This document shows, one piece after another, positions 39,776-63,525 of a DNA stretch of 64,000 nucleotides; positions within the stretch are counted from its first letter, which is position 1, and each line of letters begins with the position of its first letter. This stretch comes from Aliiruegeria haliotis (GTDB lineage Bacteria; Pseudomonadota; Alphaproteobacteria; Rhodobacterales; Rhodobacteraceae), in the NCBI RefSeq assembly GCF_003003255.1, contig NZ_PVTD01000005.1:1-64000 (forward strand). Reading direction: 5' to 3'. The translations under genes and the position numbers were made by a program. The notes beneath the pieces were generated by a model. It saw nothing but the letters and a program-made list of their open reading frames with translations. It searched no databases and was not told the DNA's origin.

Positions 39776-39873
39776 GACTGCATGCTCCAATGCGACCTTT
39801 TCCCGGGCCGCCTTGCGGGGTTGGCTGCCTTGGGCTAGACGCTGCCGCGACAAGAGAACCCGAGGACCTTCCG

Positions 39874-41352
39874 ATGGCTAAGGACAAGAAGCCCCGCCGC
39901 CCCAAGGCAGAGACGCCCAAGGGCTTCCGCGACTATTTTGGCGCGGAAGTGGCTGAGCGCAACCATATGCTTGGGCAGATTGCGGAGGTCTACCATCTTT
40001 ACGGGTATGACCCGCTGGAAACTTCTGCCGTGGAGACCGTCGAAGCATTGGGCAAGTTCCTGCCCGATGTCGACCGCCCGAACGAAGGTGTCTTCGCGTG
40101 GGAAGAGGATGGCGACTGGCTGGCACTGCGATATGACCTGACGGCGCCGCTCGCGCGGGTGGCGGCCCAGTTTCGCAACGATCTGCCGAACCCCTACCGG
40201 CGCTACGCGATGGGGCCAGTCTGGCGCAACGAGAAACCGGGGCCCGGGCGCTACCGCCAGTTCTACCAATGCGATGCGGATACCGTCGGCGCGCCGAGCG
40301 TGGCCGCGGATGCGGAGATTTGCTCCATGCTCAGCGATACGCTGGAGCGTGTGGGCATTCCGCGCGGCGACTACCTGGTGCGGATCAACAATCGCAAGGT
40401 GCTGAATGGTGTGCTGGAGGCCGTGGGGCTTAACCCGGCCGAGGATCAGGCAACCGCCGACGCGGTTCTGCGCACCATCGACAAGTTCGACAAGGTTGGC
40501 GCGGACGGCGTGCGGCAACTGCTGACCACGGGACGCAAGGACCAGTCGGGTGCCTTCATCGACGGCGTCGGTCTCGGGGATGCGGTCGCGGACACCGTTC
40601 TGGCGTTCATGCAGGCCAAGGGTGCGGATGCCGCTGCAACGATTGCGTCCTTGCGTGAAGTGGTTGCCGGCTCGCCAACAGGGGCGACCGGTGTCGACGA
40701 ACTGGAACAGATCGGCGCGTTGCTCGCCGCACAGGGATACGGACCCGACCGGACGGAGATAGACCCGTCGGTTGTGCGGGGCCTGGGCTACTACACCGGT
40801 CCGGTGTTCGAAGCCGAGCTGACCTTCGAAATCATGGACGCCAAGGGCAGGCCGCAGCAATTCGGCTCGGTCGCTGGTGGCGGCCGCTATGACGACCTCG
40901 TCAAACGCTTCACCGGGCAGGCGGTGCCCGCGACCGGGGTGTCCATTGGCGTCGACCGGCTGCTCGCCGCGTTGCGGGCAAAAGGGCGCATGGATGGCAT
41001 AGCCCAGGGTCCGGTGATCGTTACCGTTATGGATCGCAACCGCATGGCCGATTACCAGGCGATGGTTGGCGAGCTGCGCAATGCCGGCATCCGGGCGGAG
41101 GTCTATCTCGGAAACCCGAAGAACTTCGGCAACCAGCTCAAATATGCAGACAAACGTCTGTCGCCCGTTGCGGTGATCGAGGGCGAGGATGAGGCGGCGC
41201 GGGGCGTCGTGCAGGTCAAGGACCTCGTGCTTGGCGCGAAGATCGCGGAAAGCGCGAGCCTCGAAGAGTGGAAGAGCCAGCCGGCGCAGCGCGAAATCCC
41301 GCGCGGCGATCTCGTTGCCGAAATCCGCAAGATGCTTCGGCAGGAAGGCTGA
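39874..41352 (+). CDS. hisS: histidyl-tRNA synthetase
   Basis: 492 residues; class II synthetase charging tRNA-His. [41 protein letters not shown] (motif 2), the histidine-specific [14 protein letters not shown] (300 on), and motif 3 [13 protein letters not shown] are clear, and an anticodon-binding domain ends the protein. ATG 39874 follows a CGAGGACC ribosome binding site; the frame to 39790 is ignored. Precedes hisZ and hisG, forming one unit. Confidence 0.96.
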
Positions 41353-41355
41353 GAT

Positions 41356-42471
41356 ATGCCCAGCAAGGACCAGATCCGGGCAGAGGCTGCCCGGCTTCAG
41401 GCGGTATTCCAGGAGGCCGGGGCGACCCCTGTCGATCCCGATATCCTGCAACCCGCAACCGCGCTGCTGGACCTGTACGGAGAGGACATTCGCGCCCGCG
41501 CCTATGTCACGGCGGATCCGCTCAAGGGGGAGCAGATGCTTCGCCCGGATTTCACCGTTCCGGTCGTGCAGATGCACGTGGCCAACGGCCATTCCGGCGA
41601 GGCGCGCTACACCTATGCCGGTGAGGTCTTTCGCCGTCAGGAGATGATCGAGCCCGGCCGGGATAACGAGTATTTCCAGGCGGGTATGGAGATCATCGAT
41701 GCAGCCGATCCGGCAGCGGCCGAGGCGGAGTTGTTCGTTCAGTTCTCCGCGCTGCTCTCGCCGCTGAAACTGCGAGCGGAGATGGGGGATATCGGCTTGC
41801 TGGCCGCGGCAGTCGAGGGGCTTGACGCCTCGGATGCGCGCAAGGCGGCCCTGCTGCGCCACATCTGGCGCCCGCGCCGGTTCCGGGCGCTGCTGGACCG
41901 CTTCGCCGGTCGCGCGAAGGTTCCCGCGAGCCGGACGGCACTGCTCAGGCGGCTGGAGTCCGAGGCACCGGAGGAGATCATCGCCGCAGAGGGGCTGTTC
42001 ATCGGTCTCCGCGAGCCGGCTGAAGTCGTCCAGCGCATGCGGACATTGCAGGAAGATGCGGAAACCCCACCATTGTCGGCCAACCAGGTGGCACTGATCG
42101 ACGACCTGCTGGAGATCCGCGAGACGCCGTGGAATGCGCTGGCGCGGCTTCGGGACATTGCCGTGGACCTGCCCGTGCTGGATGCCTCTCTGGACCGGCT
42201 GGAACGCCGCCTGGACGTGATGTGCGAACGCGGGGTGGACCTCGCGCGGCTGGAGTTCGACACCAGCCACGGCCGCTCGACAATGGAGTATTATGACGGT
42301 TTCGTCTTCAGTTTCTCGGTTCCCGGCCGTCCAGACCTGCCGCCGGTGGCGCTTGGTGGGCGCTATGACGCGCTCACGCGCGTGCTGGGGCAGGGGCGGG
42401 AGATCCCGGCGGTCGGCGGCATGGTCCGGCCCGGCCTGTTGCTGGAACTGGCCACGGAGGGCGCGAAATGA
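41356..42471 (+). CDS. hisZ: ATP phosphoribosyltransferase regulatory subunit
   Basis: 371 residues, a HisRS paralogue that lacks the anticodon domain and serves as the regulatory subunit for short-form HisG. GEDIRARAYVTADPLKGEQMLRPDFTVPVVQMH, AGEVFRRQE, and FDTSHGRSTMEYYDGFVFSF show the synthetase-like core. Three bases after hisS; its TGA overlaps the hisG ATG. Confidence 0.94.
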   Translation: MPSKDQIRAEAARLQAVFQEAGATPVDPDILQPATALLDLYGEDIRARAYVTADPLKGEQMLRPDFTVPVVQMHVANGHSGEARYTYAGEVFRRQEMIEPGRDNEYFQAGMEIIDAADPAAAEAELFVQFSALLSPLKLRAEMGDIGLLAAAVEGLDASDARKAALLRHIWRPRRFRALLDRFAGRAKVPASRTALLRRLESEAPEEIIAAEGLFIGLREPAEVVQRMRTLQEDAETPPLSANQVALIDDLLEIRETPWNALARLRDIAVDLPVLDASLDRLERRLDVMCERGVDLARLEFDTSHGRSTMEYYDGFVFSFSVPGRPDLPPVALGGRYDALTRVLGQGREIPAVGGMVRPGLLLELATEGAK

Positions 42472-43160
42472 GCCTGAAACTCGGGGTGCCCTCCAAGGGC
42501 AGGCTGATGGAGAAGACCTTCGACTGGTTCGGTGCGCGCGGTCTGGATATCCGGCGCACGGGATCGGACCGCGAGTATGCGGGCGCCGTCGGCGGCATCG
42601 ACGGTGTGGATCTGGTTTTGCTGTCAGCTGGCGAAATCCCGCGCGAGTTGAACGCGGGGCGCATTCACCTCGGCGTCACGGGCAGCGACCTCGTGCGAGA
42701 ACGGATCCCGGGCTGGGAAAGCCGTGTTGAAGAGCTTTCGCGGATGGGCTTTGGGCAGGCCGATCTCATCATCGCGGTGCCGAAGTGTTGGGCCGATGTG
42801 GACACGGTGGAGGATCTGGATGCGGCAGCGTCCGCATTCCGCAAAGTGCACGGCCACAGGCTTCGGATTGCCACCAAGTATCACCGGCTGGTGCGTGAGT
42901 ACCTTCGGGAAATGGGTGTCGCGGACTACAAGCTGGTCGACAGTCAGGGTGCAACCGAAGGCACGGTGAAGAACCTGACGGCGGAGGCCGTGGCGGACAT
43001 CACCTCCACCGGGGAGACATTGCGGGCGAACCACCTGAAGATCCTCGCGGACGGGATGATCCATCGCAGCCAGGCGACCTTGTTCCGTTCCAAGACAGCT
43101 AGCTGGAGCATGGCCCAGAAGGCGGCTCTGAATGAACTGGCGGAGATGATCTCCGCCTGA
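42468..43160 (+). CDS. hisG: ATP phosphoribosyltransferase, short form
   Basis: 230 residues, the first enzyme of histidine synthesis. LGVPSKGRLMEKT, ELNAGRIHLGVTGSDLVRE and VKNLTAEAVADITSTGETLRAN are conserved. It lacks the C-terminal regulatory domain of the long form, hence its need for HisZ, encoded just upstream with a four-base overlap. Confidence 0.96.
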   Translation: MSLKLGVPSKGRLMEKTFDWFGARGLDIRRTGSDREYAGAVGGIDGVDLVLLSAGEIPRELNAGRIHLGVTGSDLVRERIPGWESRVEELSRMGFGQADLIIAVPKCWADVDTVEDLDAAASAFRKVHGHRLRIATKYHRLVREYLREMGVADYKLVDSQGATEGTVKNLTAEAVADITSTGETLRANHLKILADGMIHRSQATLFRSKTASWSMAQKAALNELAEMISA

Positions 43161-47653: not shown

Positions 47654-48334
47654 TCATTCGTCGTCCTCATCGGCTCGTGAGCTGTTCATGTTGTACTGGT
47701 GATGCGCGATCGCATCTTCGACGTTTTCGTAGTACACGAGCTGCCCGTTATCCAACACAGCTCCTGATGTGCAAATTTGGCGCACGAGCCGCAAACCGTG
47801 ACTGACCACGATTGCACTGCCATTTGCAAGACGGTTCAGGAAATAATCCCGGCTCTTGGACTTGAAAGACGCATCTCCCGTGGCTGTGCTCTCGTCCACG
47901 AGGTAGGTGTCGAACTGGATACCCATGGACAGGCCGAAGGACAGACGACCGCGCATTCCCGAGGAATACGTGCGAACTGGCAGATGATAGTGCACCCCAA
48001 GCTCGGCGAACTCCTCGACGAATCGTACCAGCTCGTCAGTGTCCACGCCGTAGACACGGGCGATGAACCGCACATTCTGCGCGCCGGTCAATTCCTTGTG
48101 AAAGCTCCCGGCGAAGCCAACGGGCCAGGAAATCGTGCCGTCCGACGTGATGAATCCGCTGTCAGGTTCGAGAGTCCCGGCAATCATTTTCAGCAGGCTG
48201 GACTTCCCCGCACCGTTGCGTCCCAACAGCCCGACGCTTTCGCCGGTTGGAAAGACAGCATTTACCCCGTTCAGAATCGTCTTGGACTCCCCTGACAGGT
48301 GAAATGTCTTTCTGAGGTCATGCAGCTGGATCAC
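47654..48334 (-). CDS. kpsT: capsule polysaccharide ABC exporter, ATP-binding subunit (GTG start)
   Basis: 226 residues. Walker A GRNGAGKS (38-45), the divergent signature YSSGMRGRLSFGLSMG and Walker B TYLVDE are those of polysaccharide exporters such as KpsT/CtrD rather than importers. It powers the KpsM channel. The start is GTG 48334, 12 bases after the kpsE-like gene; AGGCGAG is the ribosome binding site. Confidence 0.92.
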   Translation of the reverse strand: MIQLHDLRKTFHLSGESKTILNGVNAVFPTGESVGLLGRNGAGKSSLLKMIAGTLEPDSGFITSDGTISWPVGFAGSFHKELTGAQNVRFIARVYGVDTDELVRFVEEFAELGVHYHLPVRTYSSGMRGRLSFGLSMGIQFDTYLVDESTATGDASFKSKSRDYFLNRLANGSAIVVSHGLRLVRQICTSGAVLDNGQLVYYENVEDAIAHHQYNMNSSRADEDDE

Positions 48335-49897: not shown

Positions 49898-49992
49898 GGT
49901 TCGTTCCTGCAAACCACAATAAAGCCATGGAAGACTTTTGCTCCTTCCTACATAGTCCCGCCTGCTTTATCCAGTGTGGCAGAAAGCACAGC

Positions 49993-50796
49993 ATGGACGA
50001 ACTACTCAAACCGGTCTCCCGCCCGCGGAGTTTCAAGACCAGCCGAACCATTGTCGCGTTGATCCTGCGTGAGATGCAGACGACCTACGGAAGGAACGCC
50101 GGTGGCTACCTCTGGGCGATCCTGAACCCGGTTGGTGCGCTGGCGATGTTCGTGCTCGTCATCGCCGTCGGTCTGCGCATCCGAACGCCCGGCTTGGGCA
50201 CCAACTTCCCGTTGTTCTACGCGACCGGCTATCTGCCACTGCAGCTGACGCTGACAACGATCTCCAAGGTCGCTGGCTCGTTGAACTACTCCAAGCCACT
50301 GCTCAACTACCCTGGCGTGCAATACACGGACGCGATCATTGCGCGGTTCGTGCTGAACTTTATCACGCAATGTGTGGTCGGCGTAATCATCTTTGTGGGT
50401 ATCCATGTTCTGTGGGACCTCAACACGATCCGGAACCTTCCGGCGATCGTCGCCTCTTTCGTACTGGCTGCATTTGTGGGGTTGGGGATCGGAGTGCTGA
50501 ACTGCTTCCTGTTCTCCGTCTCGTCGATGTGGCAGTCGACCTGGGGCATCCTGACCCGACCGCTGTTTCTGCTGTCCTGCATCTTCTTCATCTTCGAGGA
50601 CGTCCCGTCCCAATATCAGGACGGTTTGTGGTGGAACCCCCTGATCCACGTGGTCGGACTGATGCGACGCGGGTTCTATGCCACCTACGAGGCGCCCTAC
50701 GTGTCAATCGTCTACCTTGTGTCGGTTTCCCTGATCTGCATGACGCTTGGGCTTCTGTTCCTCAACCGCTTCCACCTGAGCATCCTGAATCGCTAG
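49993..50796 (+). CDS. kpsM: capsule polysaccharide ABC exporter, permease subunit
   Basis: 267 residues with six membrane spans: REMQTTYGRNAGGYLWAILNPVGALAMFVLVIAVGLR at the start and the C-terminal QDGLWWNPLIHVVGLMRRGFY, typical of ABC-2 exporters of the KpsM/CtrC group. Together with KpsT it moves lipid-linked polymer across the inner membrane. ATG 49993 is the family-like start; the frame from 49927 adds 22 unlikely residues. Divergent from the kpsE-like gene, with about 95 bases between the starts. Confidence 0.92.
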   Translation: MDELLKPVSRPRSFKTSRTIVALILREMQTTYGRNAGGYLWAILNPVGALAMFVLVIAVGLRIRTPGLGTNFPLFYATGYLPLQLTLTTISKVAGSLNYSKPLLNYPGVQYTDAIIARFVLNFITQCVVGVIIFVGIHVLWDLNTIRNLPAIVASFVLAAFVGLGIGVLNCFLFSVSSMWQSTWGILTRPLFLLSCIFFIFEDVPSQYQDGLWWNPLIHVVGLMRRGFYATYEAPYVSIVYLVSVSLICMTLGLLFLNRFHLSILNR

Positions 50797-50823: not shown

Positions 50824-52338
50824 ATGAGAATCCTCTTCTACAACTGGGTCGACTACTTCGATCACCAGAAGCGCGGCGGCGGGGTGACCCAGTACCAGCG
50901 CAATGTGCTCGATCACCTTGATCAGTGTTCGGGTGTGAGCTGTTTTTTCCTGTCGAGTGGCACTTCCTACGATCTGGGCGGCAAGGCTCCGCGATGGGCG
51001 AAGGTCGTGCACGGGCCGAAAGACGGGCGCGACCGCCGGTTCGAGATTGTGAACTCGGAGTGCCAGGCGCCGTCTCACATGTCCTTTGGCGACCCCGCGC
51101 AGGTGGAGGGAGCAGCCACGGTCGAGGTTTTCGCGGATTTCATTGCGCGACACGGACCCTTCGACGTCATCCACTTCAACAATCTCGAAGGCATACCGGT
51201 GGACGTCCTCGCGCTGAAGGCCAGGTTGCCGCAAACCCGGTTCGTGTTCGCGCTGCACAACTACTATCCCTTCTGTCCGCAGGTGAACTTCTGGCACCAG
51301 GAGCGTCAGCATTGCTCGGACTTCGAGGGCGGTGCCCGCTGTGCAAAGTGCCTTCCGTTCAAGCTGAACCCACGAATGGGCCGATTGGCCAACGCGGTGA
51401 ATTTCACCCTGCACAAGGGTGGGTTGGGTCCCGGCACCACGTTTCACACCCATGCCGCCGGGCCGGCCATGGGCTACGGGATCAAGGCGGTTCGCAAGTT
51501 CGCAGCTGCCCGTCGCGCCGCCGCGACACGACAGGGGGAGAAGTTTGCTCGTTCCGCCGCACCACAACCTGCGGTGGACCCCTTGGTCGCGGGCGCATTT
51601 CGGCAGCGCCGAAGTGAATTCGTCGCGGCGATCAATGCGCACTGTGACGACGTGCTCTGCGTTTCCGATCGCGTCCGACTGATCGCCGAGACACACGGGA
51701 TCTCCCCGTCGCTCCTGCACACCAGCTATATCGGTAGTGACCACGCCGATCGCTTCGCCGAAACCAATCCGCGCGCCAGGATCCTGCACGAGGATGGCAC
51801 GGCAAAGATGGCGTTTCTCGGCTACATGCGCCGGGACAAGGGGTTCTTCTTCCTGCTTGACGCGCTGGAGGCCATGCCCGCCCACCTTCTGGAACGGTTG
51901 CATGTGCTTTTTGCGGCCGCAGGTCGGGACGACGATATCGCGAGGAGGTTCGCGGCGCTTGAACGGAGACTTGCCTCACTCACTTGGGTCAACGGCTATT
52001 CCAGGGACAGCATGGACGAGATGTTGAGCGATGTGGATTTCGGGATTATCCCGGTTCTGTGGGAAGACAACTTGCCCCAGGTCGCCATCGAAATGCACGC
52101 TCGCCACATCCCGCTGCTGACCAGCGACAGGGGCGGCGCGCAAGAGCTTGGCCGCTTTCCAAACATGGTGTTCCGCTCCGAGGATGCTCAGAGCCTTCAC
52201 GAAAGGATCGAGGCGATTCTTGGTGGTGAGATCGACCTCAACGCCTATTGGGCCGGGGCGATGCGCCCCGTGTCGATGGAGCAGCACGTGGCAGAGCTTC
52301 TGGCGATATACGGCCGAAAGACTCTCCCCGCGACTTGA
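50824..52338 (+). CDS. GT4-type glycosyltransferase (first of a tandem pair)
   Basis: 504 residues. N-terminal MRILFYNWVDYFDHQKRGGGV, then HFNNLEGIP and a typical retaining GT4 C-terminal half: GYMRRDKGF, and EDNLPQVAIEMHARHIPLL, where the acidic residues bind the sugar nucleotide. A long basic insert (about 185-260) separates the halves. Likely adds a sugar to the surface polymer in the cytoplasm. Twenty-seven bases after kpsM. The next gene is a clear paralogue. Confidence 0.85.
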   Translation: MRILFYNWVDYFDHQKRGGGVTQYQRNVLDHLDQCSGVSCFFLSSGTSYDLGGKAPRWAKVVHGPKDGRDRRFEIVNSECQAPSHMSFGDPAQVEGAATVEVFADFIARHGPFDVIHFNNLEGIPVDVLALKARLPQTRFVFALHNYYPFCPQVNFWHQERQHCSDFEGGARCAKCLPFKLNPRMGRLANAVNFTLHKGGLGPGTTFHTHAAGPAMGYGIKAVRKFAAARRAAATRQGEKFARSAAPQPAVDPLVAGAFRQRRSEFVAAINAHCDDVLCVSDRVRLIAETHGISPSLLHTSYIGSDHADRFAETNPRARILHEDGTAKMAFLGYMRRDKGFFFLLDALEAMPAHLLERLHVLFAAAGRDDDIARRFAALERRLASLTWVNGYSRDSMDEMLSDVDFGIIPVLWEDNLPQVAIEMHARHIPLLTSDRGGAQELGRFPNMVFRSEDAQSLHERIEAILGGEIDLNAYWAGAMRPVSMEQHVAELLAIYGRKTLPAT

Positions 52339-52443
52339 CCTCGTACCCGCGACCAAGCATGTCGCATTGCAGTGCAGCACCGAGCCCGTACACCAGTGAA
52401 TAGCCTTGCGGACCAACGCGACAGCAGGAACGAGCGCTGATTG

Positions 52444-53991
52444 ATGAAAATTCTCTATTACAACTGGGTCGACTACCTCGACGCTGAAAAGCGCGGCGGG
52501 GGCGTCACTGTCTACCAGAAGAACCTGATCACACATCTTGGTCAGAAGTCGGATGTGGATGTGTATTCTATATCCTCGGGCATTTCATACGACATGTTCT
52601 CCAACGCGCCCCGCTGGGAGCCGGTCCGGCACGGGTCAAAGGAGAATCGCGCCCGACGGTTCGAGATCATCAACTCGGCGGTGATGTCTCCCGGGCACCA
52701 CGCATTCGGCCACCGGAGCCAATTGAACGATGAAGCGACGGTTCAGGTGTTCTTTGACTTCATCGAAACGCATGGTCCGTTCGATGTTGTGCATTTCAAC
52801 AACCTCGAAGGGATACCGGCGGCCGCGATGACGCTCAAGGAGCGGTTTCCGGACACCAAGGTCATATTCAGCCTCCACAACTATTTCCCGGTCTGCCCGC
52901 AGGTGAACCTGTGGCAGAGAGAGCGGCGCAACTGCCTCGATTTTGAGGGAGGGCGGAAATGCACCGATTGCTTGCTGGAGATGCCCAAGGCCAACCAGAT
53001 TCGGCAGGCCAACGCGCTCGCCTATGTTCTGAAGAAGAACGGGATTGCTCCGGGAACCGGACTGTTTCGGACCTTGTTCGGCCCGGCCTACAGGTTGGCC
53101 AACAAGGCGCTGCGCGTCTCCCGAAAATGGTCGAGCGGCAGCAGGGAGGTGCTCGACTTCGCGAATGCGGTCGGCCCCGATGCCGACGTCGGCGAGTTCG
53201 CCGGCAAGCCGCTGTACCAAAGGATCAGCCTGGCCGACTACTACAGCGCAAGGCGGGAGAAGATCGTCGCGATCATGAACGAGAACTGCGACCGGATCCT
53301 GTGCGTGTCCAACCGCGTAGGCGAGGTGGCGGCGAAGTTCGGACTCGACCCGGCGTTGCTGGAGACCAGCTACATCGGCACGCAACAGGCAGACCTTTTC
53401 GAGAAAACCGAGGCGAAACCTTCACTGGTGAAGGAGGACGGGACGGTCACACTGGGCTTCCTGGGCTACATGCGGCGCGACAAGGGGTTCTATTTCCTGA
53501 TGCGGGCACTGAAATCGCTGCCCGAAGACCTCGCCAACCGCATCAATCTCGTTGTATGCGCCAAGACCGGTGAAGAGGACGCTATGGCGCGGTTGAACCA
53601 GGTGGGCAATCATCTGAATGATGTGCTTCATGCGGACGGCTATTCCCACAACCAACTCGACGCCTTGCTGGAGCGGGTAGACGTCGGCGTCGTGCCGGTC
53701 CAATGGGAAGACAACCTCCCGCAGGTCGCCATCGAGATGCACGCCCGTCACATACCGTTGCTGACAAGCGATCTGGGCGGGGCGCAGGAGCTGGGCAATA
53801 CCCCGTCGATGGTCTTTGAGGCCAACAGTATCAAGAGTTTCGAGAGTCGGATTCGCGATATTCTCGATGGAAAGGTCGACCTTGAGGCGTATTGGGCCAA
53901 TGCGATGCCGCCCGTGTCGATGCAGGATCACGAGGCGCAGCTGCTCGACCTGTATCGCAGGCTTGTATCCGGGGTCGCGGCTGCGGCATAG
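52444..53991 (+). CDS. GT4-type glycosyltransferase (second of a tandem pair)
   Basis: 515 residues. It shares long identical blocks with the preceding gene (YNWVDY, KRGGGVT, HFNNLEGIP, GYMRRDKGF, EDNLPQVAIEMHARHIPLL), but differs in the central insert and in many loops, so it is a diverged duplicate, not a recent copy. Both keep CLHN-like LHNYFPVCPQVN and a cysteine cluster (RRNCLDFEGGRKCTDCL). ATG 52444 is preferred to the TTG one codon earlier. The 105 bases before it show nothing. Confidence 0.85.
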   Translation: MKILYYNWVDYLDAEKRGGGVTVYQKNLITHLGQKSDVDVYSISSGISYDMFSNAPRWEPVRHGSKENRARRFEIINSAVMSPGHHAFGHRSQLNDEATVQVFFDFIETHGPFDVVHFNNLEGIPAAAMTLKERFPDTKVIFSLHNYFPVCPQVNLWQRERRNCLDFEGGRKCTDCLLEMPKANQIRQANALAYVLKKNGIAPGTGLFRTLFGPAYRLANKALRVSRKWSSGSREVLDFANAVGPDADVGEFAGKPLYQRISLADYYSARREKIVAIMNENCDRILCVSNRVGEVAAKFGLDPALLETSYIGTQQADLFEKTEAKPSLVKEDGTVTLGFLGYMRRDKGFYFLMRALKSLPEDLANRINLVVCAKTGEEDAMARLNQVGNHLNDVLHADGYSHNQLDALLERVDVGVVPVQWEDNLPQVAIEMHARHIPLLTSDLGGAQELGNTPSMVFEANSIKSFESRIRDILDGKVDLEAYWANAMPPVSMQDHEAQLLDLYRRLVSGVAAAA

Positions 53992-54022: not shown

Positions 54023-55189
<1,167 letters not shown>

Positions 55190-55204: not shown

Positions 55205-56857
55205 TTGGAAGAGCAGGTGCCGCCGCAAGGTGTTTCGACAGAAACAAACGGAGACCCGCGGATCTCGGTGATCCTTCCGGTCTACAATGTCGCCCCGTAT
55301 GTCGGTGCCTGTATCGAAAGCCTGAAGGCGCAGACCTTCACCGATTTCGAAGTTATCATCGTTGACGATGGCTCCACAGACGGTAGCGATGCGGTTGCCT
55401 GGAGCGCAGTCGCCAACGACCTCCGGTTTCGTCTGCTGTCGCGACCGAACGGCGGTTTGTCAGCGGCCCGGAACCACGCGCTACCCCATGCACGCGGCAC
55501 GTTCATCAGCTTCGTCGACAGCGACGACCGGCTGTCGCCGCACTACCTTGCAACGTTATACGATGCGTTGGTGAGCACCGGGGCGGACTGGTGCGCCTGC
55601 GCGGTTCGGTTTTGCGATGCCGATGGCACACATGTGGACCACTCGGCGATCCACGGCGTGCCGTTTCCGGCCGCTGAGGGGGCTGGACCGGTTGTGTACC
55701 AGTTTGACGATTGGCGGGATGTCATCCGGCATTTCCCGTCGGCCTGGAACAAGCTCTACCGGCGTGAGTTTATCGGCGATATCCGCTATATCGAGGGCAC
55801 CTACTACGAGGACCACCCATTCTTCAACGCCTTGGCCACGCAGACCGATCGCATGGCCTATGTCCCACAGCCGCTTTACTGGCAAACCCAGGGCCGGCCT
55901 GGGCAGATCACCCGTGTCGGCTCCACTCGGGTTTTTGAACAGTTCCGCATCCTCGACGAGATGAAGGCTATCATGGAGGCAACATCGCGGCCGGGTAAGG
56001 CGGAAGCCTTTGAGCAAATCACCACCCGCCTGCTGTTCGAACGCAGCACGGCCGTGGGAGATACGGACTTGCGGACGGATCTGGCGCTGCGTGGGCAACG
56101 ATACCTTGCCGAGAACGGGATTGCCTATCGGCCGGAGTGGGATCCCTTCATCGGTCGCGCCTGGGGGCACATGGTGAATGGACACCTGCCGCTGTCGGTG
56201 GTTCTGCCGGTGGAGGAGGTCGATGACGCCCTGGCCGCGACGCTGTCATGCCTGAAACTTCAGTGGGGCTCAGATTTCGAGACCGTCCTGGTTCGAACCC
56301 GCTCTAGCGAAGCGTCCAGGGTTAAGCTACTTGAGATTGCGGCCAAGCTGCCAAGGTGCACTGTCCTCGCGGCCGGGCTGGAGTCGCGCGAAGGCGCAAT
56401 CGCACACGGGATCAACTGCGCGCGCGGCGCCTACGTCATGTTGCTGAATCCGGGTGATGTCGTGCCGCACTATTCCCTCGGCAACCGCTCCGAGCGGGTG
56501 GTGCGCGCTGGTGCGGGGATTGGCCTGCCCATAGCGGCGGCGGGGCTTCCCGATCAGCACGGCCCGCGAAACCCGTACGACCCGCTGGGAAAGCTGGAGA
56601 GCCCTGACGAGCGTATTCGCCATCTTTGTTCCGGGGAGGTGTCGACAGAATGGCCTCTTGCAGACACGCTGTTCCAAAAACAGCTGTTCGACCCGCGTGC
56701 CCTTGCCACCTTGCCGGCACTGCTTACAGCAACGAGACTCTGGGAAGCAGTCGGTGACTCGTCCCATGTGATCGTGGGATTCGATAGCGCCGATGTCAGT
56801 ATGGAGTCTGCCGCAAAACCTTCGGTTTTTTTGCCGCAGGAGCCGAAGCCATGGTGA
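55205..56857 (+). CDS. GT2 glycosyltransferase with a degenerate second domain
   Basis: 550 residues. Residues about 19-250 are a GT-A fold glycosyltransferase: RISVILPVYNVAPYVGACIESLKAQ, DDGST (54-58) and DSDD (105-108) as the metal site, and PSAWNKLYRREF. From about 335 a second region (LSVVLPVEEVDDALAATLSCLKLQ, YVMLLNPGDVV) repeats the GT2 opening without its DxD. Start unclear: TTG 55205 and GTG 55217 are both possible. Lies 15 bases after glf. Confidence 0.8.
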   Translation: MEEQVPPQGVSTETNGDPRISVILPVYNVAPYVGACIESLKAQTFTDFEVIIVDDGSTDGSDAVAWSAVANDLRFRLLSRPNGGLSAARNHALPHARGTFISFVDSDDRLSPHYLATLYDALVSTGADWCACAVRFCDADGTHVDHSAIHGVPFPAAEGAGPVVYQFDDWRDVIRHFPSAWNKLYRREFIGDIRYIEGTYYEDHPFFNALATQTDRMAYVPQPLYWQTQGRPGQITRVGSTRVFEQFRILDEMKAIMEATSRPGKAEAFEQITTRLLFERSTAVGDTDLRTDLALRGQRYLAENGIAYRPEWDPFIGRAWGHMVNGHLPLSVVLPVEEVDDALAATLSCLKLQWGSDFETVLVRTRSSEASRVKLLEIAAKLPRCTVLAAGLESREGAIAHGINCARGAYVMLLNPGDVVPHYSLGNRSERVVRAGAGIGLPIAAAGLPDQHGPRNPYDPLGKLESPDERIRHLCSGEVSTEWPLADTLFQKQLFDPRALATLPALLTATRLWEAVGDSSHVIVGFDSADVSMESAAKPSVFLPQEPKPW

Positions 56858-56930: not shown

Positions 56931-59900
56931 ATGCTGTTGAGCTGTCAGATTGCCGGAGAAACGACTTGGGAATGCCTTCTGCGGAAGGATCGGTTCGATC
57001 ATGCGAATGTCTCTTTCTTCGATGCCGAGGGGGAGGATATCCTCTTCCATCTCTCCTTTCGGTTTCCGGTCGGGGCGATGGTTTTCAACTCGCGGTTCGA
57101 CGGCACCTGGGGTGGCGAGGTCGTCAAGAAATGCCCGGTCGTAGCCGACGAGACCCCGCTCCGCATTTCCTTCACAAGCTCCCATATCAGGGTCGAGGTC
57201 GCCGGTCGGGAGATTCTCCGTCATCGCCGACGCTCCGGTGCCGCCCCGATCCACTGGTTTGACCTCCATGGCGGGTTTTCCGATCTGCGAATCGATGGGG
57301 CTGATGGGGGCCCTGCCACTGTCATGGGAGAGCTCGCCTTCACAGAGCCTTTTGCCCTTGAAGGGTGGGCAATCGACGTCGGTGCAGAGAAACAGGACAT
57401 TCGGATCAAGTGTTCCGGTGGGGTTGGCGACTTGCCGCTGGCACGGCTGACGCGTCCGGGACTTGCCGAGGCCGCGGCCTGTTCGCAGATCAAGCTCGGC
57501 GTGAGTGCAATCCTCCCGGGCCGGTTCTGGCACAATGTACCCGAGGGCGAGGACCTTACCCTCCAGCTCGTGTGCAATGGCAAGCCCTGCGCAGCGCCGC
57601 TCCGGATCAGCCGACGGGAAATCGTCGAGATCGTTGAAGCCGCACTCGACGTGGGTTCCGACAAGAAGAAGATCGTCGATATCGGGAAGGCCGCCGCCAG
57701 TTCGAAGCCGGACAAGAGCAAGGATGCCTTTCTTCTGGTTTCGGCGGTCGAACACGCAGCCTTCGCCGATATCATTGACGACTTGAGCGCGGGCGCCCGG
57801 AAGAACCTCCTAGACACGGTCACAGCATACAAGCTGCAGGATCTACTTCCGTCCAGCCGCCTGATTGGTGATGTCGAAACAGAAGAGTTCGCCGAGATTG
57901 ACAGGGAAACGGCCTTCACCGCGCCCGTGAATGCCGTCCAGAAGGATCTCGCCCGCTTTTTGGCGAAGCAGGAGACCCCGGACCCGGCGGCCTTTCTTGC
58001 GTCCGAAGGCGATCGATTGATCGAGACGATGGAGCCGGAGCAGGCCCGGCTACTGGCGCTACGCCTGACGGAAGTGTTCTGCACTCACGGCGCGATTGAC
58101 GCGCTGAATGGGTTTGCGATGGCCGCGCGGCTTGGTCGCGCAGATCCGAAGCCGCCATCCTGGCAACGATCGCTGAGGCTGCCTCTCGATGTGCACAATG
58201 GGGAACGCGAGCCGGTCGTGGGCTTCTTTCAGTGGCTGGCAGAACGACCGAAGGCCTGGATATCCACGGCGAACCTCGGCTGGAGCATGCGCCAGATCGT
58301 GGAGAACTGCCCACCATTTCTTACCGACACCGACCGCGAAACTGCGGCGCGTGCATTCGTGGACTACGTCGGAACGCAAGCAGACGATTATTGGGGAACA
58401 AGCCCGTGCCGCCATCTGGTCGACACGATGGTATCCCTGCTTGAGAACCGGCACCTGTTCTCTTCCCATTTCAATGACTGGTTGGTTTATCGTGCCATTC
58501 GAATCTACTGGATGTCTCCCGGTTTCTGGACAGCATTGCAGGCCCGCCCCACGGCGGAAGCCGTGTTGGCCGAGCCGGCATTGGGGCGGGCCTATGCAGC
58601 TTGGGAACGGCTCGAAAGCGCGGTTCTGGAGCCCGATCAACCGGTCCAACGGGGTGCACCGCTACCGCCATATTCCGAGGCAACGTCCCAGGCTGTTCGA
58701 GAACTGGCGCTTGCGGGACGGCAGGTCCAAAACCTTGCCGCGATAGATCCCTTTCTCGAGCGGGATCTTGCACTTCGTCGTCTGGCCATGCCCAATGGCC
58801 GACATCTGGATGGGGCGACGCCCGATTTCATCGCGCAGTCCGTCCGTGAGTTCTCCAAGGAAGTGCCGGCGAATGAGTACGTTGCGCTTCAGGAACGTGC
58901 GAGCCGGCATGCCGTGGAGTGGATCGCCGACCTGGGCACGGATCCCGAAGCCAGCGAGGCGCAGTTGCAGGGTATCGCGCCGCTTCTGCGCGTGATCAGT
59001 GGGCGCCGTGCGGGTTTCGTCGGCATCGCGACCGCTATTTCAATGGTCAGCGCCGCCCTGCGGGAAGGCGCGGATCGGGAAGCAGAAGCCGCGGCACGCC
59101 TTGTTCGGGCGCTTCTCACGTCCGTTGCGGCCTGGGACCAGAAGGATATTCAGGTTTCGCCAGCGGTCCGTATGTCGGCATTCGGTTTGCGGCAGACAGC
59201 GCTGGTCACGGGGAATCCACAGGCCCATGTTCTGTTGGACCACTTCACCGACGCACTTGCCAACGTTCCCGAACCCGCCAGTTCCGAGATGGAACGGATG
59301 ATTCCGCGCGGTGGCATGGCAGCCTTTTTCGACACGCTTGTGGTGATCTTCTCTTGCCGTCCGTTGTTGGAGACGCGGGTCAAGGCGCAGCGGGAAACCT
59401 GGATCAGGGACCTGCAGGACCGGGGTATTCCGTATGTGATTGTCGTTGGCGATGGGGATGATCGGCTGGAGGGAGACGTGCTCCACCTGAACACGCCCGA
59501 TGGCTACGAAGGATTGCCGCGGAAGGTTCTTGACGCTGTTCGCTGGGTACAGGCAAACACCGCGTTCAGCCATATGTTGAAAATCGACGACGATTGCTTC
59601 CTGAGTGTCGACCGGTATTTCCACAGCCAGAGCTATCGAAAGTTTGCATACTACGGCCGCAAGCTCACCCGGGATGTCGGTCAGACCGATCGTACCTGGC
59701 ATCTGTCGCGGGCGAAGGGTGGTCTGCATGAGCTCGACATCGACCGGTCTCCAGAACCCTCGGACTATGCCGAGGGCGGTACAGGATACGCTCTCAACCG
59801 AACCATCATGGAGATCCTGATCCGGACAGCGGACACCCCGAAAGGCGCACAGCTGACGCTGAGTTCCATCATGGAAGACAAGCAGACTGGTGATCTTCTG

Positions 59901-61049
59901 GGAATGTGCGGAATCCTTCCCGACAGCGAGGATTTCGATGCCTGCGTGATGCGCCGGTCGCACTCGAAGGCCCATCCCGTCAGCCGTTGGGTCAATACTT
60001 TCCTGCCCTCGGCGTCGAGCCCGGCAAAGGTAGCCCATCTCGATTCTGCTGACCTGCAGCCGCTCGCGGCAAGAACCCACGCCAGCGACGGTCTGTATCC
60101 GAAGAAGGTCTGGCCATCGTTCAAAGCGCCCATAATGGGCCACAATTCCAACATCGTGGAACTGGTCTGTTCCGAGGAGCAGTTCACCCGGGTCAATACC
60201 GAGGACCTCGTGGTCGTCTGCTGCGCACGCAACGAAAAGGTCATGCTGCCGCATTTTCTGGATCACTACCGGCGAATGGGCGTCAACGGGTTCCTCATGA
60301 TCGACAATTTCTCCGATGATGGATCTCTGGAGTACCTCCTGGAGCAACCGGATGTGGCGACGTTCTCGGCTGAAACCGACTACTCGGAGTCGCAATATGG
60401 TGTTGCCTGGCAGCAGGCGGTCCTTTCAGCATTTCGGCAAAACCGTTGGTCGCTGGTTGCGGATGCCGACGAACTGCTCGTTCTGCGAAGCGACGAACCC
60501 TCGCTGCCCGACGTGGTCAAAGGTGACGACCTGCAAGGCTTTGATGCTGCGCGAGTATTCATGCTGGATCTATATCCGGGCGGCGATCTGTCTGATGCGC
60601 GCCTCGGCGATGACGGGCCGTTCGACGTTGCGGGGTTTGTGGATCGCGAGCCGTTCCTGTCAAACTCTTCGTCAGGGGGGCCGTTCTCCAATGCCGAGAC
60701 CTACACCAGCAGCCTTCGCCATCGACTCCTGCCCGGGTCGCGGCCGGAACTCTTCGTGGCCCAAAAGATTGCGCTGTTGAAGTACAAGCCCTGGATGCGG
60801 CTCTCAGCCGGGCTTCACTATGTCGCCAACGCGCAAGTTGCGCCGCGTGACATGATTTTCGCCCATTTCAAGTATCACGCGGACTTCCATCGCAAGGTAC
60901 GGGAAGAGACGGAGCGTGGCGAACACTTCAACAATGCAGAGGAGTATCGTCGATACAAGGCGTTGCTCTCCGAAGGTCGGGACAGCCTTTTCGATCCGGA
61001 GGTGTCTGTGCCTTGGAGGGACTGCGATTGGGTCAAGGCGCGGCTGTAG
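56931..61049 (+). CDS. trimodular protein: galectin-like N-terminus, GT31-like and GT2_4-like glycosyltransferases
   Basis: 1372 residues. Residues 1-123 look like a galectin: HLSFR (His40, Arg44), VFN (Asn53) and TWGGE (Trp60, Glu63) keep the sugar-binding order and most spacings of galectin-1, though the Asn between His and Arg is Ser and the last Arg is Val. About 124-230 is a second beta-rich region, and 230-790 a helical stretch. About 800-1000 resembles GT31 beta-1,3-galactosyltransferases: KIDDDCF (883 on), YAEGGTGYALN and EDKQTGDLL. From 1093, VVCCARNEKVMLPHFLDHYRRMG with ADADE (1177 on) is GT2_4-like. GAGGAA 7 bases before ATG 56931 supports the start. Likely builds a galactose-containing polymer. 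Confidence 0.75.
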   Translation: MLLSCQIAGETTWECLLRKDRFDHANVSFFDAEGEDILFHLSFRFPVGAMVFNSRFDGTWGGEVVKKCPVVADETPLRISFTSSHIRVEVAGREILRHRRRSGAAPIHWFDLHGGFSDLRIDGADGGPATVMGELAFTEPFALEGWAIDVGAEKQDIRIKCSGGVGDLPLARLTRPGLAEAAACSQIKLGVSAILPGRFWHNVPEGEDLTLQLVCNGKPCAAPLRISRREIVEIVEAALDVGSDKKKIVDIGKAAASSKPDKSKDAFLLVSAVEHAAFADIIDDLSAGARKNLLDTVTAYKLQDLLPSSRLIGDVETEEFAEIDRETAFTAPVNAVQKDLARFLAKQETPDPAAFLASEGDRLIETMEPEQARLLALRLTEVFCTHGAIDALNGFAMAARLGRADPKPPSWQRSLRLPLDVHNGEREPVVGFFQWLAERPKAWISTANLGWSMRQIVENCPPFLTDTDRETAARAFVDYVGTQADDYWGTSPCRHLVDTMVSLLENRHLFSSHFNDWLVYRAIRIYWMSPGFWTALQARPTAEAVLAEPALGRAYAAWERLESAVLEPDQPVQRGAPLPPYSEATSQAVRELALAGRQVQNLAAIDPFLERDLALRRLAMPNGRHLDGATPDFIAQSVREFSKEVPANEYVALQERASRHAVEWIADLGTDPEASEAQLQGIAPLLRVISGRRAGFVGIATAISMVSAALREGADREAEAAARLVRALLTSVAAWDQKDIQVSPAVRMSAFGLRQTALVTGNPQAHVLLDHFTDALANVPEPASSEMERMIPRGGMAAFFDTLVVIFSCRPLLETRVKAQRETWIRDLQDRGIPYVIVVGDGDDRLEGDVLHLNTPDGYEGLPRKVLDAVRWVQANTAFSHMLKIDDDCFLSVDRYFHSQSYRKFAYYGRKLTRDVGQTDRTWHLSRAKGGLHELDIDRSPEPSDYAEGGTGYALNRTIMEILIRTADTPKGAQLTLSSIMEDKQTGDLLGMCGILPDSEDFDACVMRRSHSKAHPVSRWVNTFLPSASSPAKVAHLDSADLQPLAARTHASDGLYPKKVWPSFKAPIMGHNSNIVELVCSEEQFTRVNTEDLVVVCCARNEKVMLPHFLDHYRRMGVNGFLMIDNFSDDGSLEYLLEQPDVATFSAETDYSESQYGVAWQQAVLSAFRQNRWSLVADADELLVLRSDEPSLPDVVKGDDLQGFDAARVFMLDLYPGGDLSDARLGDDGPFDVAGFVDREPFLSNSSSGGPFSNAETYTSSLRHRLLPGSRPELFVAQKIALLKYKPWMRLSAGLHYVANAQVAPRDMIFAHFKYHADFHRKVREETERGEHFNNAEEYRRYKALLSEGRDSLFDPEVSVPWRDCDWVKARL

Positions 61050-61117: not shown

Positions 61118-62110
61118 TTATTCGGCAGGTTGACCGAAGGCAGGGCTGGAAGCACGGTCCTGGGCCAACATCGTAACCTCGGCATGGGGGCGGCTACGTT
61201 TACCGATGATGCCGTCACGAACACCGTGCCAGAGCATCTTGTAGTACGCGCGGCGGGCGTCCCCGTAGTGACGCCCGGCCGATAGCCACTTGGTCAGGAT
61301 CAGCAACAAGACCGGCCAGAACAGCATGCCCGCTGCAAAACGATACACCAGCAACCCGTTCCGCGCCGTGTAGTAGGCTTTCCAGATCGGGTTGTAGATA
61401 CTGGCCTTGCCGTCGTTCGGTGTGTTGAATTCATGCTCGAACTCGAGTTCGGGCACGAAGCCGATCTTCAGGCCGGCTTTCCGCAGACCGAGTGTATAGA
61501 GAACGTCGTCGCCGTAGATGAACAGGCTGCCGTCGGGATATCCCACCTGGCGGATCGTGTTTCGCGGGATGAAAAGACCCACGAAGGACGTTGCATCGAT
61601 CTCGCAAGGATCGGAGGAATAGGCACTGTCACCAATGTGAAACCCACCGCGGGACCTTCCGACAAGTGTTCCGCCCATGGTGCGGAAGAAGGTGGGCAAG
61701 TGCCAGAAGGGATTGATCGTCGGGCGGTTCATCTCGCAGATCCGGCCGTCTTTCAGGTAGACGGCGGCCGAGACCGCTCCCCATCCATTCATTTCCCCTT
61801 TTCGAAATCTCTCGAAGCAGCCGGGCTTGGGGCGAGCGTCGTCGTCCATGATGACGATCCAGTCGGGGTCGTCTTCCTCCACGGCCTTCCGCAAGCCAAG
61901 TTCGAAACCGCCGGCACCGCCGAGGTTGCCGGGCGCAAAGATGACCCGTACCCGGGAATCGTCCAGTGTCGAAAGCCAATCCTTTGTGCCGTCGGTGGAC
62001 CCGTTGTCGATCACGAATACCCGATCACACGGCTCATTCAGTAGGCGATGCAATGTACGTTTTATTTGCTCGAGGCGATTGTACGTGACCACGACGGCGG
62101 CCAATGTCAT
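61118..62110 (-). CDS. GT2 glycosyltransferase, galactofuranosyltransferase (GlfT)-like
   Basis: 330 residues. VVVTYNRLEQIKRTLH, DNGSTDGT, NLGGAGGF (62-69) and IVIMDDDARP with Asp89-91 are the hallmark of GlfT-type GT2 enzymes that use UDP-galactofuranose, matching the mutase nearby. A C-terminal hydrophobic stretch (FAAGMLFWPVLLLILTKWL) suggests membrane attachment. ATG 62110 starts at the conserved domain; no clear ribosome binding site is seen, and 51 further codons are open upstream. Convergent with the trimodular gene. Confidence 0.85.
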   Translation of the reverse strand: MTLAAVVVTYNRLEQIKRTLHRLLNEPCDRVFVIDNGSTDGTKDWLSTLDDSRVRVIFAPGNLGGAGGFELGLRKAVEEDDPDWIVIMDDDARPKPGCFERFRKGEMNGWGAVSAAVYLKDGRICEMNRPTINPFWHLPTFFRTMGGTLVGRSRGGFHIGDSAYSSDPCEIDATSFVGLFIPRNTIRQVGYPDGSLFIYGDDVLYTLGLRKAGLKIGFVPELEFEHEFNTPNDGKASIYNPIWKAYYTARNGLLVYRFAAGMLFWPVLLLILTKWLSAGRHYGDARRAYYKMLWHGVRDGIIGKRSRPHAEVTMLAQDRASSPAFGQPAE

Positions 62111-62430
62111 CGGCGAATTCGGTTCGCGCTCGTTTTCGACGCCCCTGATTGGAGCGAAAGGGCTATTTGCGGCACCCACACGACCGGACGCCTCATCGGC
62201 GCTTGGGAAATTGTGGACCACGCGTCCCCCGCCTACTGTCCAATTCAAGAAAACAACACCCAACCTAGTATTCCCGGTTTCGGCCCTCCGCAGAAAATGC
62301 CATGCGATGAGGCGGTTCCGAGATATTCCCGTTCCCGCGAGTCGTCGCAGGAACGGCGCTGTTTGTCAAAAGACGATATCAGGAATGTCGGCAATAAACC
62401 GCCTGATTCCCATTTGCCGCCCGGGGTTTA
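62111..62430. other. 320-base gap between the GlfT-like and KpsD-like genes
   Basis: Both flanking genes run leftward, so the promoter of the GlfT-like gene should lie here. A minus-strand TTGACA (about 62370) exists without a good -10. ATAAACC/GGTTTAT (62394-62400 with 62425-62431) form an inverted repeat across the kpsD stop. The frame extending the GlfT-like gene to 62263 has no ribosome binding site and is not taken as coding. Confidence 0.45.
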
Positions 62431-63525
62431 TCACCGCAGTTGGTTGTTGTAGCCGATCAGGGTGCCAAGAATTCCGAACACAGTGGAGGCGGCATTCACC
62501 GGCGATTCCGTTACAAGAACGGTGTCTCCAGAGTAGATCGGGAATTTCCCGGCGCTGAACAGCCCATCTGCGGTGGTCATGTCGATTGCAAAAACCGTGC
62601 GGGCGTTCCGCGGGCCGGTGCTGTCGCTGCGGACAGCCGATGACGGGTATTGTCGCAAAATGAGCACACCTTGCGGATTTGCTCGACGATCGTCGATGCC
62701 GGCCATGAGCGACAGGGCGTCCAGAGCGGAGATTTTGTCCTCGGAGAAGTAGACTGCCTCCTCCGTTCCAGTTGCCCCGAGCGCACGGAAAAACCGGTCA
62801 TCGTCCACCAGCGCAACCTTATCGCCGCCCTTCAGAATCGTGTCGGCATTTCCGTTTTCATAGAGCCGCTCAAGCGAGGTTCCATAGGTCTTTCCGGCGC
62901 GAATCAGGCGTACCTGGGGATTGCGCAATTGATCGGGCCCGCCGCCTTGGCTGATCAGGTTGAGCACCGTGAAGTGGCCTTCGGGCAGGGGCACGGTACC
63001 AGGGCTTCGAACGCCTCCAACAAGGCTCACCGAGCCTCTCGTGCCGGGCGAAACCGACAGTTGGACCTGCGCTGATGGAACGATCGCCGTCATTTCCTGT
63101 TCAATCACGCGCCGTGCGGCGTCCGGCGTCCTGTTGGCCACGTCGACATATCCGATGTAGGGCACGAAAACCTGCCCCCTCTCTGTCACGCGGAGGTTGG
63201 TGACCTCGGTAAGTTTCGAGGTCGGCGAGGTCAGCAGCGAGTTTTCCTCGCTGTCCCAGATCGTCAGGTCGATCCGGTCGAACGGCTGAATGCGAATGTC
63301 GCCGCTCGCTGCGGTGTGGTTGATCCAGCTGAATCGGCGGACGTTGTCCGTCGCGGGCCAGGTTGCGAGCGCAGGGACTGTGTCCCGGGTCACCGAGTAG
63401 AGAGAGAGGTTCGGAAACTCCGAGTTTACCTCTGCAAGTACCTCTCGTTCGATCGGCGCGCCACGAGGAAGGGCGCAGGCCCCCAACAGTATGAAGACCA
63501 TCAACGGCCGAAGCATGCTCAGCAC
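62431..63525 (-). CDS. kpsD: capsule polysaccharide export outer-membrane lipoprotein (KpsD/Wza type, GTG start)
   Basis: 364 residues. A lipoprotein signal with lipobox ILLGAC (Cys17). The Wza-like core has DRIDLTIWDSEE (polysaccharide export domain, PF02563-like), then SLBB-like segments (SVSLVGGVRSPGTVPLPEGHFTVLNLISQGGG). It would form the outer-membrane exit of the capsule exporter. GTG 63525 follows GGGGGA; ATG 63516 is the alternative. It is set apart from kpsE/T/M by the glycosyltransferase genes. Confidence 0.88.
   Translation of the reverse strand: MLSMLRPLMVFILLGACALPRGAPIEREVLAEVNSEFPNLSLYSVTRDTVPALATWPATDNVRRFSWINHTAASGDIRIQPFDRIDLTIWDSEENSLLTSPTSKLTEVTNLRVTERGQVFVPYIGYVDVANRTPDAARRVIEQEMTAIVPSAQVQLSVSPGTRGSVSLVGGVRSPGTVPLPEGHFTVLNLISQGGGPDQLRNPQVRLIRAGKTYGTSLERLYENGNADTILKGGDKVALVDDDRFFRALGATGTEEAVYFSEDKISALDALSLMAGIDDRRANPQGVLILRQYPSSAVRSDSTGPRNARTVFAIDMTTADGLFSAGKFPIYSGDTVLVTESPVNAASTVFGILGTLIGYNNQLR

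Follow-up and report, generated by a model that had tools for sequence, protein, structure and literature searches.

The question raised by this locus is whether a galectin domain, a galactose-binding module found chiefly in animals and fungi, can with its sugar pocket kept form part of a bacterial enzyme that builds polysaccharide, and what such a domain would do there. The locus lies in the window, a stretch of 64,000 nucleotides from the marine bacterium Aliiruegeria haliotis (contig NZ_PVTD01000005.1), in which reading-frame analysis finds a single open frame of 1372 amino acids at 56931-61049 on the forward strand. The initial annotation, made from the letters alone, had read His40, Arg44, Asn53, Trp60 and Glu63 of this protein as a galectin-like motif placed ahead of two glycosyltransferase domains; its coordinates, frame and residues were correct, the observation itself is confirmed, and the reading built on it is supported overall, with its functional half, a lectin gripping a growing galactan, as conjecture. 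A real galectin-family domain with a conserved pocket sits on a bacterial polysaccharide-building enzyme, as a variant of the galectin-transferase fusion. The gene and its parts are as follows.

56931..61049, forward strand: whole gene, encoding galectin, unassigned region, GT31-like domain and GT2_4 domain in one protein of 1372 amino acids (frame, Pfam)
56958..57284, forward strand: galectin domain, about residues 10-118 (Pfam, PDB sequence matches, predicted fold)
57048..57119, forward strand: putative sugar pocket, with His40 (57048), Arg44 (57060), Asn53 (57087), Trp60 (57108) and Glu63 (57117)
57318..59315, forward strand: fast-evolving region of unassigned fold, about residues 130-795 (~660 residues), no Pfam match
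59328..60065, forward strand: GT31-like domain (beta-1,3-galactosyltransferase family), about residues 800-1045, with DDDC and MEDK motifs
60213..61046, forward strand: GT2_4 glycosyltransferase domain (PF13704), about residues 1095-1372, with RNE, DNxSDDG and DADE motifs

Identity of the N-terminal domain and its transferase partners

A GAGGAA stretch lies just 5' of the ATG at 56931, and a start at an earlier in-frame ATG, 56793, would make the gene overlap its upstream neighbor. In a Pfam scan, PF00337 matched residues 25-116 with 32.1 bits against a cut-off of 22.1 (E 8.8e-8), and structure prediction followed by a fold search gave residues 9-117 the galectin beta-sandwich, in agreement with the annotated galectin-like N-terminus; the model of this domain is of moderate quality, with a mean predicted local distance difference test (pLDDT) score of 58.9. 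When the window protein and nine relatives were scanned whole, 6 of the 10 reached the PF00337 cut-off, and the other 4 scored 17.8-21.2 bits. Searches of PDB sequences also matched galectins, the best being the N-terminal domain of Toxascaris galectin. The annotation had described the spacing between Arg and Asn as four residues short; the motif holds, but the shortness falls within the range of the family, since the Toxascaris domain aligns ungapped there. This profile and structure evidence for galectin identity is far stronger than that from motif shuffling, in which the motif was nonetheless beyond chance: a loose form of it turned up 70 times when residues 1-130 were shuffled 200,000 times, and 57 times in 20,000 shuffles of the full protein. 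The galectin domain had no match at E 1 among 50,697 phage records.

Both transferase domains proposed in the annotation were recovered. PF13704 (Glyco_tranf_2_4) matched residues 1100-1194 with 78.7 bits against a cut-off of 27.5 (E 5e-22). PF01762 (Galactosyl_T) matched residues 843-895 with 21.3 bits, just under its cut-off of 23; it was above cut-off in all six scanned relatives of the same architecture, and had no match in the other three scanned relatives (the L014 fragment, L021 and L022). The GT31 profile (TRANSFERASES) matches human B3GALT6 (E 3.4e-7) and B3GALT5 (E 2.1e-4), with the likeness confined to ~55 residues leading up to the DxD motif; unlike the bacterial fusion, these human proteins are stand-alone Golgi enzymes. 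The motifs DDDC and MEDK, which we take to be the DxD metal site and the downstream acidic ED motif of GT31, occur in all 17 full-length members (in the form SIMEDK in the window protein and in G007, assigned to the window's genus), as do the RNE, DNxSDDG and DADE-type motifs of the GT2_4 domain. This set of 17 includes the window protein, excludes G216 (broken frames) and G660 and G583 (other architecture), and counts once G1141 and G1139, taken as Sulfitobacter D7 and Thalassococcus S3. The GT31-like domain probably transfers galactose in beta-1,3 linkage or has a related transferase activity. When the transferase half was used as a profile, 247 of 295 genomes of the family matched, most among the matches listed only in the GT2_4 part; the special feature of the protein is the union of GT2_4 with GT31 and galectin, not GT2_4 itself.

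Between lectin and transferases, residues 130-790 matched no Pfam family, and a profile search of the PDB returned only an unconvincing match (E 0.026); the region can be aligned across full-length relatives, with a mean pairwise identity of 0.28-0.29 over 13 rows. The window protein had no match in an NCBIfam search. No membrane-like hydrophobic stretch was found in its 1372 amino acids (top 19-residue Kyte-Doolittle mean 1.54), suggesting, from hydropathy alone, that the protein is probably cytoplasmic.

The sugar pocket among relatives

PF00337 was detected in 8/295 sampled genomes of the family, 3/385 of the class and 2/398 of the phylum, each count including the window's own genome, and in 0/14 control genomes. 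The profile of the transferase half was found at full length in 8 of the 295 family genomes, including G099, whose galectin domain PF00337 missed, and a bacterial galectin profile matched 9 of 196 genomes of the order. An uncultured relative from Tropicimonas, a genus of the Roseobacteraceae, shares 51% identity over the whole length, and members are carried by five Roseobacteraceae plasmids (Thalassococcus S3, Tropicibacter oceani, Sulfitobacter D7, Sulfitobacter W027 and Palleronia LCG004), where they are annotated just as "glycosyltransferase" or "glycosyltransferase family 2 protein". In G216 (L014:1-6689), a short contig holds a broken homologue scattered across several frames.

The five residues named in the annotation as a pocket align with the pocket residues of solved galectins in PDB sequence alignments, and are the conserved positions of the family. 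Neither refuting condition set in the annotation, a fold unlike the galectin sandwich or the lack of a pocket made by these residues, was upheld at the level of predicted fold and sequence alignment. In a 10-sequence alignment, which includes the second-architecture rows described below and one fragment, they were the only invariant positions before residue 780, although invariance in the middle region is lowered there because 3 of the 10 rows are not homologous in it. Among 12 full-length orthologues, 9 of the 109 domain positions were invariant (Asn26, Phe29, His40, Ser42, Arg44, Asn53, Trp60, Glu63 and Gly114), and all five residues, named beforehand, were among them, with a chance of ~1e-6 under random draw. 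Palleronia had been set aside here once its differences were noticed; adding it back, for 13 rows in all, leaves three of the five invariant (His40, Asn53 and Trp60). All five are kept in 16 of the 17 full-length members, including all four of the last-found ones, which were used in no profile. Conservation of the pocket stands out in a domain that otherwise varies, since the galectin domain has a mean pairwise identity of 0.33 over the 13 rows, where the two transferase domains reach 0.60 and 0.63.

Two variant layouts were also found. In the G047 homologue (L054:7071-10622), galectin and GT31 are both gone and a fused GT2 + GT2_4 is kept, and the joint absence suggests, from this single case, that the lectin is tied to GT31. 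In a second architecture, which two of the four genomes sampled from a different alphaproteobacterial family possess, an N-terminal galectin is followed by GT2 and GT25 (L021:9475-13146, L022:4833-8534). Its galectin domain has an adenovirus galectin fibre as its top match (E 2e-8). Ankyrin-repeat designs also matched this domain, at best with 3.4e-8 over 18 residues, but this stretch failed alone and the match was taken as spurious.

The polysaccharide cluster and the mutase

The gene lies within a run of polysaccharide genes, in the order KpsT-like ATPase, sugar-transporter homologue, KpsM-like permease, two GT4 transferases, mutase, GT2, galectin protein, GlfT1-like GT2 and Wza/VexA-like protein. 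Its neighbors, including those of an ATP-binding cassette (ABC) exporter and a uridine diphosphate (UDP)-galactopyranose mutase, are listed here.

47654..48334, reverse strand: KpsT-like ABC ATPase, 226 amino acids (PF00005; 68% identity to the ATPase of the Thalassococcus S3 plasmid cluster)
48350..49462, reverse strand: homologue of the "sugar transporter" of the plasmid clusters (60% identical to its Thalassococcus S3 counterpart by tblastn)
49927..50796, forward strand: KpsM-like permease of a polysaccharide ABC exporter (PF01061; best NCBIfam match KpsM, under its cut-off)
50824..52338, forward strand: GT4-type glycosyltransferase (Pfam; homologues near the gene in relatives)
52441..53991, forward strand: GT4-type glycosyltransferase (Pfam; homologues near the gene in relatives)
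54035..55189, forward strand: UDP-galactopyranose mutase, glf (PF03275, E 2e-81; TIGR00031 above cut-off)
55205..56857, forward strand: upstream GT2 glycosyltransferase (Pfam; 10/17 members carry it as an N-terminal fusion to the galectin protein)
61118..62263, reverse strand: GT2 glycosyltransferase, best NCBIfam match GlfT1 (galactofuranosyltransferase), 69 bits against a cut-off of 330
62431..63525, reverse strand: outer-membrane polysaccharide export protein, Wza/VexA-like (PF02563; NCBIfam export-protein matches under their cut-offs)

Several cluster genes have homologues near the galectin protein in relatives; for the export protein, one was found within the searched stretches of relatives in Tropicimonas only. 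The upstream GT2 is 42-48% identical, over about 420-450 residues, to the versions fused in 10 of the 17 members, and the fusion, which may or may not have arisen once, takes 2 changes among the members, with few starred branches. The mutase had been placed beside the galectin protein; it is nearby but not adjacent, as the GT2 gene at 55205-56857 lies between them.

A mutase was found in 8/8 genomes with a full-length galectin protein versus 23/142 other genomes of the family (Fisher P 1.5e-6). In this comparison G047 and G100 were counted on neither side, and family-wide profile searches suggest that the 149 genomes scanned for the mutase hold no further member. G216, with its broken galectin gene, gave no mutase match. 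In the genus with the second architecture, a mutase match was present in the two genomes with the galectin protein and in neither of the two without, and mutase and galectin gene were on different contigs. In G100 (L055:6684-8432), the mutase is matched in two reading frames that lead directly into a C-terminal fragment of the galectin protein, and this locus looks like a decayed remnant of the cluster.

Possible roles of the lectin

We consider it fairly probable that this is a multi-domain glycosyltransferase working in the cytoplasm, in a surface polysaccharide pathway that depends on an ABC transporter, and that its front galectin domain holds the nascent chain. The domain would bind a beta-galactoside unit of the chain or its primer and keep it on the enzyme while the GT31-like and GT2_4 domains add sugars, and the GT2 partner, through fusion or adjacency, would add sugars too. 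Like other ABC-exported glycans, the chain would reach full length inside the cell, prior to export, and so be accessible to a cytoplasmic lectin. Descriptions of ABC-dependent pathways place chain completion in the cytoplasm and show that export can be gated by binding modules of the ATPase (PMC11231755, PMC10629545). There are also precedents for lectin domains on transferases: that of GnT-IVa binds the product and impairs activity when mutated, and those of GALNT enzymes guide catalysis, whereas the lectin domain of POMGnT1 appears unrelated to enzymatic activity, as summarized in PMC9296478.

The initial annotation called this arrangement a new design, which is too strong, since land plants already fuse PF00337 to PF01762 (PMC4687291, PMC5225481). 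Arabidopsis GALT1-GALT6 combine galectin and GT31 in one polypeptide (PMC4687291), and the land-plant proteins are described as galactosyltransferases of glycan synthesis (PMC4687291, PMC5225481). They are predicted to be type II Golgi membrane proteins, unlike the bacterial protein with its lack of a membrane-like stretch, ~680 residues between galectin and GT31, extra GT2_4 domain and polysaccharide cluster. The pair is shared but layout, anchor and partners are not, so that convergence would be the simplest reading of the sequences. A further, more tentative proposal is that bacteria independently reached the plant pairing as a cytoplasmic clamp that holds the nascent chain for two or three transferases of one polypeptide. 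Such a clamp might set how processively a biofilm or capsule polysaccharide with galactose or galactofuranose is made prior to export, or the pattern of its repeats.

Galectin domains have been tabulated in bacteria before: a published table has its "Galactoside" (PF00337) column filled for cyanobacterial orders (PMC10655256), which counts against the novelty of a bacterial galectin domain in itself. No report of a bacterial galectin-GT31 protein was present among the matches listed in the open-access literature, and the pair runs counter to a survey of 153 genomes, including 52 bacteria, which reported it only in land plants (PMC5225481). A bacterial likeness in design is the mycobacterial arabinosyltransferase EmbC, a transferase with a lectin-like sugar-binding module; it differs in being a membrane enzyme with another lectin-like fold, and the galectin-like fold mentioned in that account is noted only for another Emb loop (PMC3044687). 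With the window protein, galectin domains that keep their pocket reach into the assembly of bacterial glycans. The role of the galectin domain in such transferases, named as future work in PMC4687291, could be addressed directly in this bacterial protein, which is probably soluble, and if the clamp reading is true, galectins would take part in building glycans as well as reading them, in at least two bacterial architectures.

Several observations weigh against chain holding. The structure prediction for the GT31 + GT2_4 half is too low in confidence to place the domains (pLDDT 31.8). The mutase link may reflect the cluster rather than the lectin, and the genomes compared are related, not independent; moreover, G153 has its mutase on a different contig, and in G016 more than 100 kb separate the two genes. 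In Palleronia sp. LCG004 (L060:13024-18417), both transferases are kept and, in the pocket, Arg44 is replaced by Gln and Glu63 by Pro, making this member, by its sequence, an apparent natural pocket-loss variant. Finally, two classical galectin positions are replaced in the window protein, with Ser42 for the Asn of HxNxR and Val65 for the Arg of WGxExR.

These replacements raise the possibility, which we regard as rather unlikely, that the domain plays the same chain- or substrate-holding role with a ligand other than beta-galactopyranoside, such as galactofuranose, rhamnose, an amino sugar or a nucleotide sugar. Ser42, at the position of Asn46 in galectin-1 numbering, is invariant in the 13 alignment rows, and the WGxExR Arg is not conserved. 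The mutase and the GlfT1-like neighbor point to galactofuranose in the glycan, and rhamnose genes are found in three plasmid clusters. However, the PDB sequence alignment shows Ser in place of Asn46 in the Toxascaris N-terminal domain too, the best PDB match, so that Ser42 alone is no bar to galectin membership. More broadly, the window domain resembles Toxascaris leonina galectin (4hl0), galectin-9 and chicken GRIFIN in sequence, predicted fold and the five pocket residues, and differs in being part of an enzyme, whereas animal and nematode galectins are stand-alone lectins, and in its Ser for Asn46 and missing WGxExR Arg. Where a review gives HFNPRF, VCN and WGxExR as conserved galectin motifs (PMC13084444), the window protein reads HLSFRF, VFN and WGGEVV, and the His-Arg-Asn-Trp-Glu set that it keeps belongs to the galactopyranose-reading residues of galectins by the motifs of that review.

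Less probable still is that the lectin acts as a checkpoint and not as an elongation aid, sensing a finished or capped chain or coupling synthesis to the exporter, like the carbohydrate-binding module of some Wzt ATPases. Carbohydrate-binding modules do gate ABC-dependent O-antigen export (PMC11231755, PMC10629545), and the KpsT-like ATPase of the cluster is short, at 226 amino acids, with little room for such a module. WbbB and its relatives, ABC-dependent O-antigen polymerases, likewise carry several transferase modules per protein and use ABC export, but there the binding module is described on the ATPase, and the word "lectin" is absent from the main text of PMC11231755. In the window protein the lectin sits on the transferase, not the ATPase, and its loss together with GT31 in G047 suggests a tie to that enzyme.

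We think it very unlikely that the galectin fold is kept for structure or protein-protein contacts and binds no sugar. Some animal galectins are weak sugar binders, and Palleronia retains its transferases despite a damaged pocket, but the pocket residues are among the few that are invariant in the 12 orthologues, in a domain of 33% mean pairwise identity. A chance motif or a mis-assigned jelly-roll domain is extremely unlikely, since Pfam, PDB sequence searches and fold search concur, even though the motif alone is short and the model only moderate.

Upstream of the polysaccharide cluster, at 39790-43160, two histidyl-tRNA synthetase-like proteins (the second perhaps HisZ) and HisG stand in a row, with housekeeping genes (lysyl-tRNA synthetase, ribonucleotide reductase) as their neighbors.

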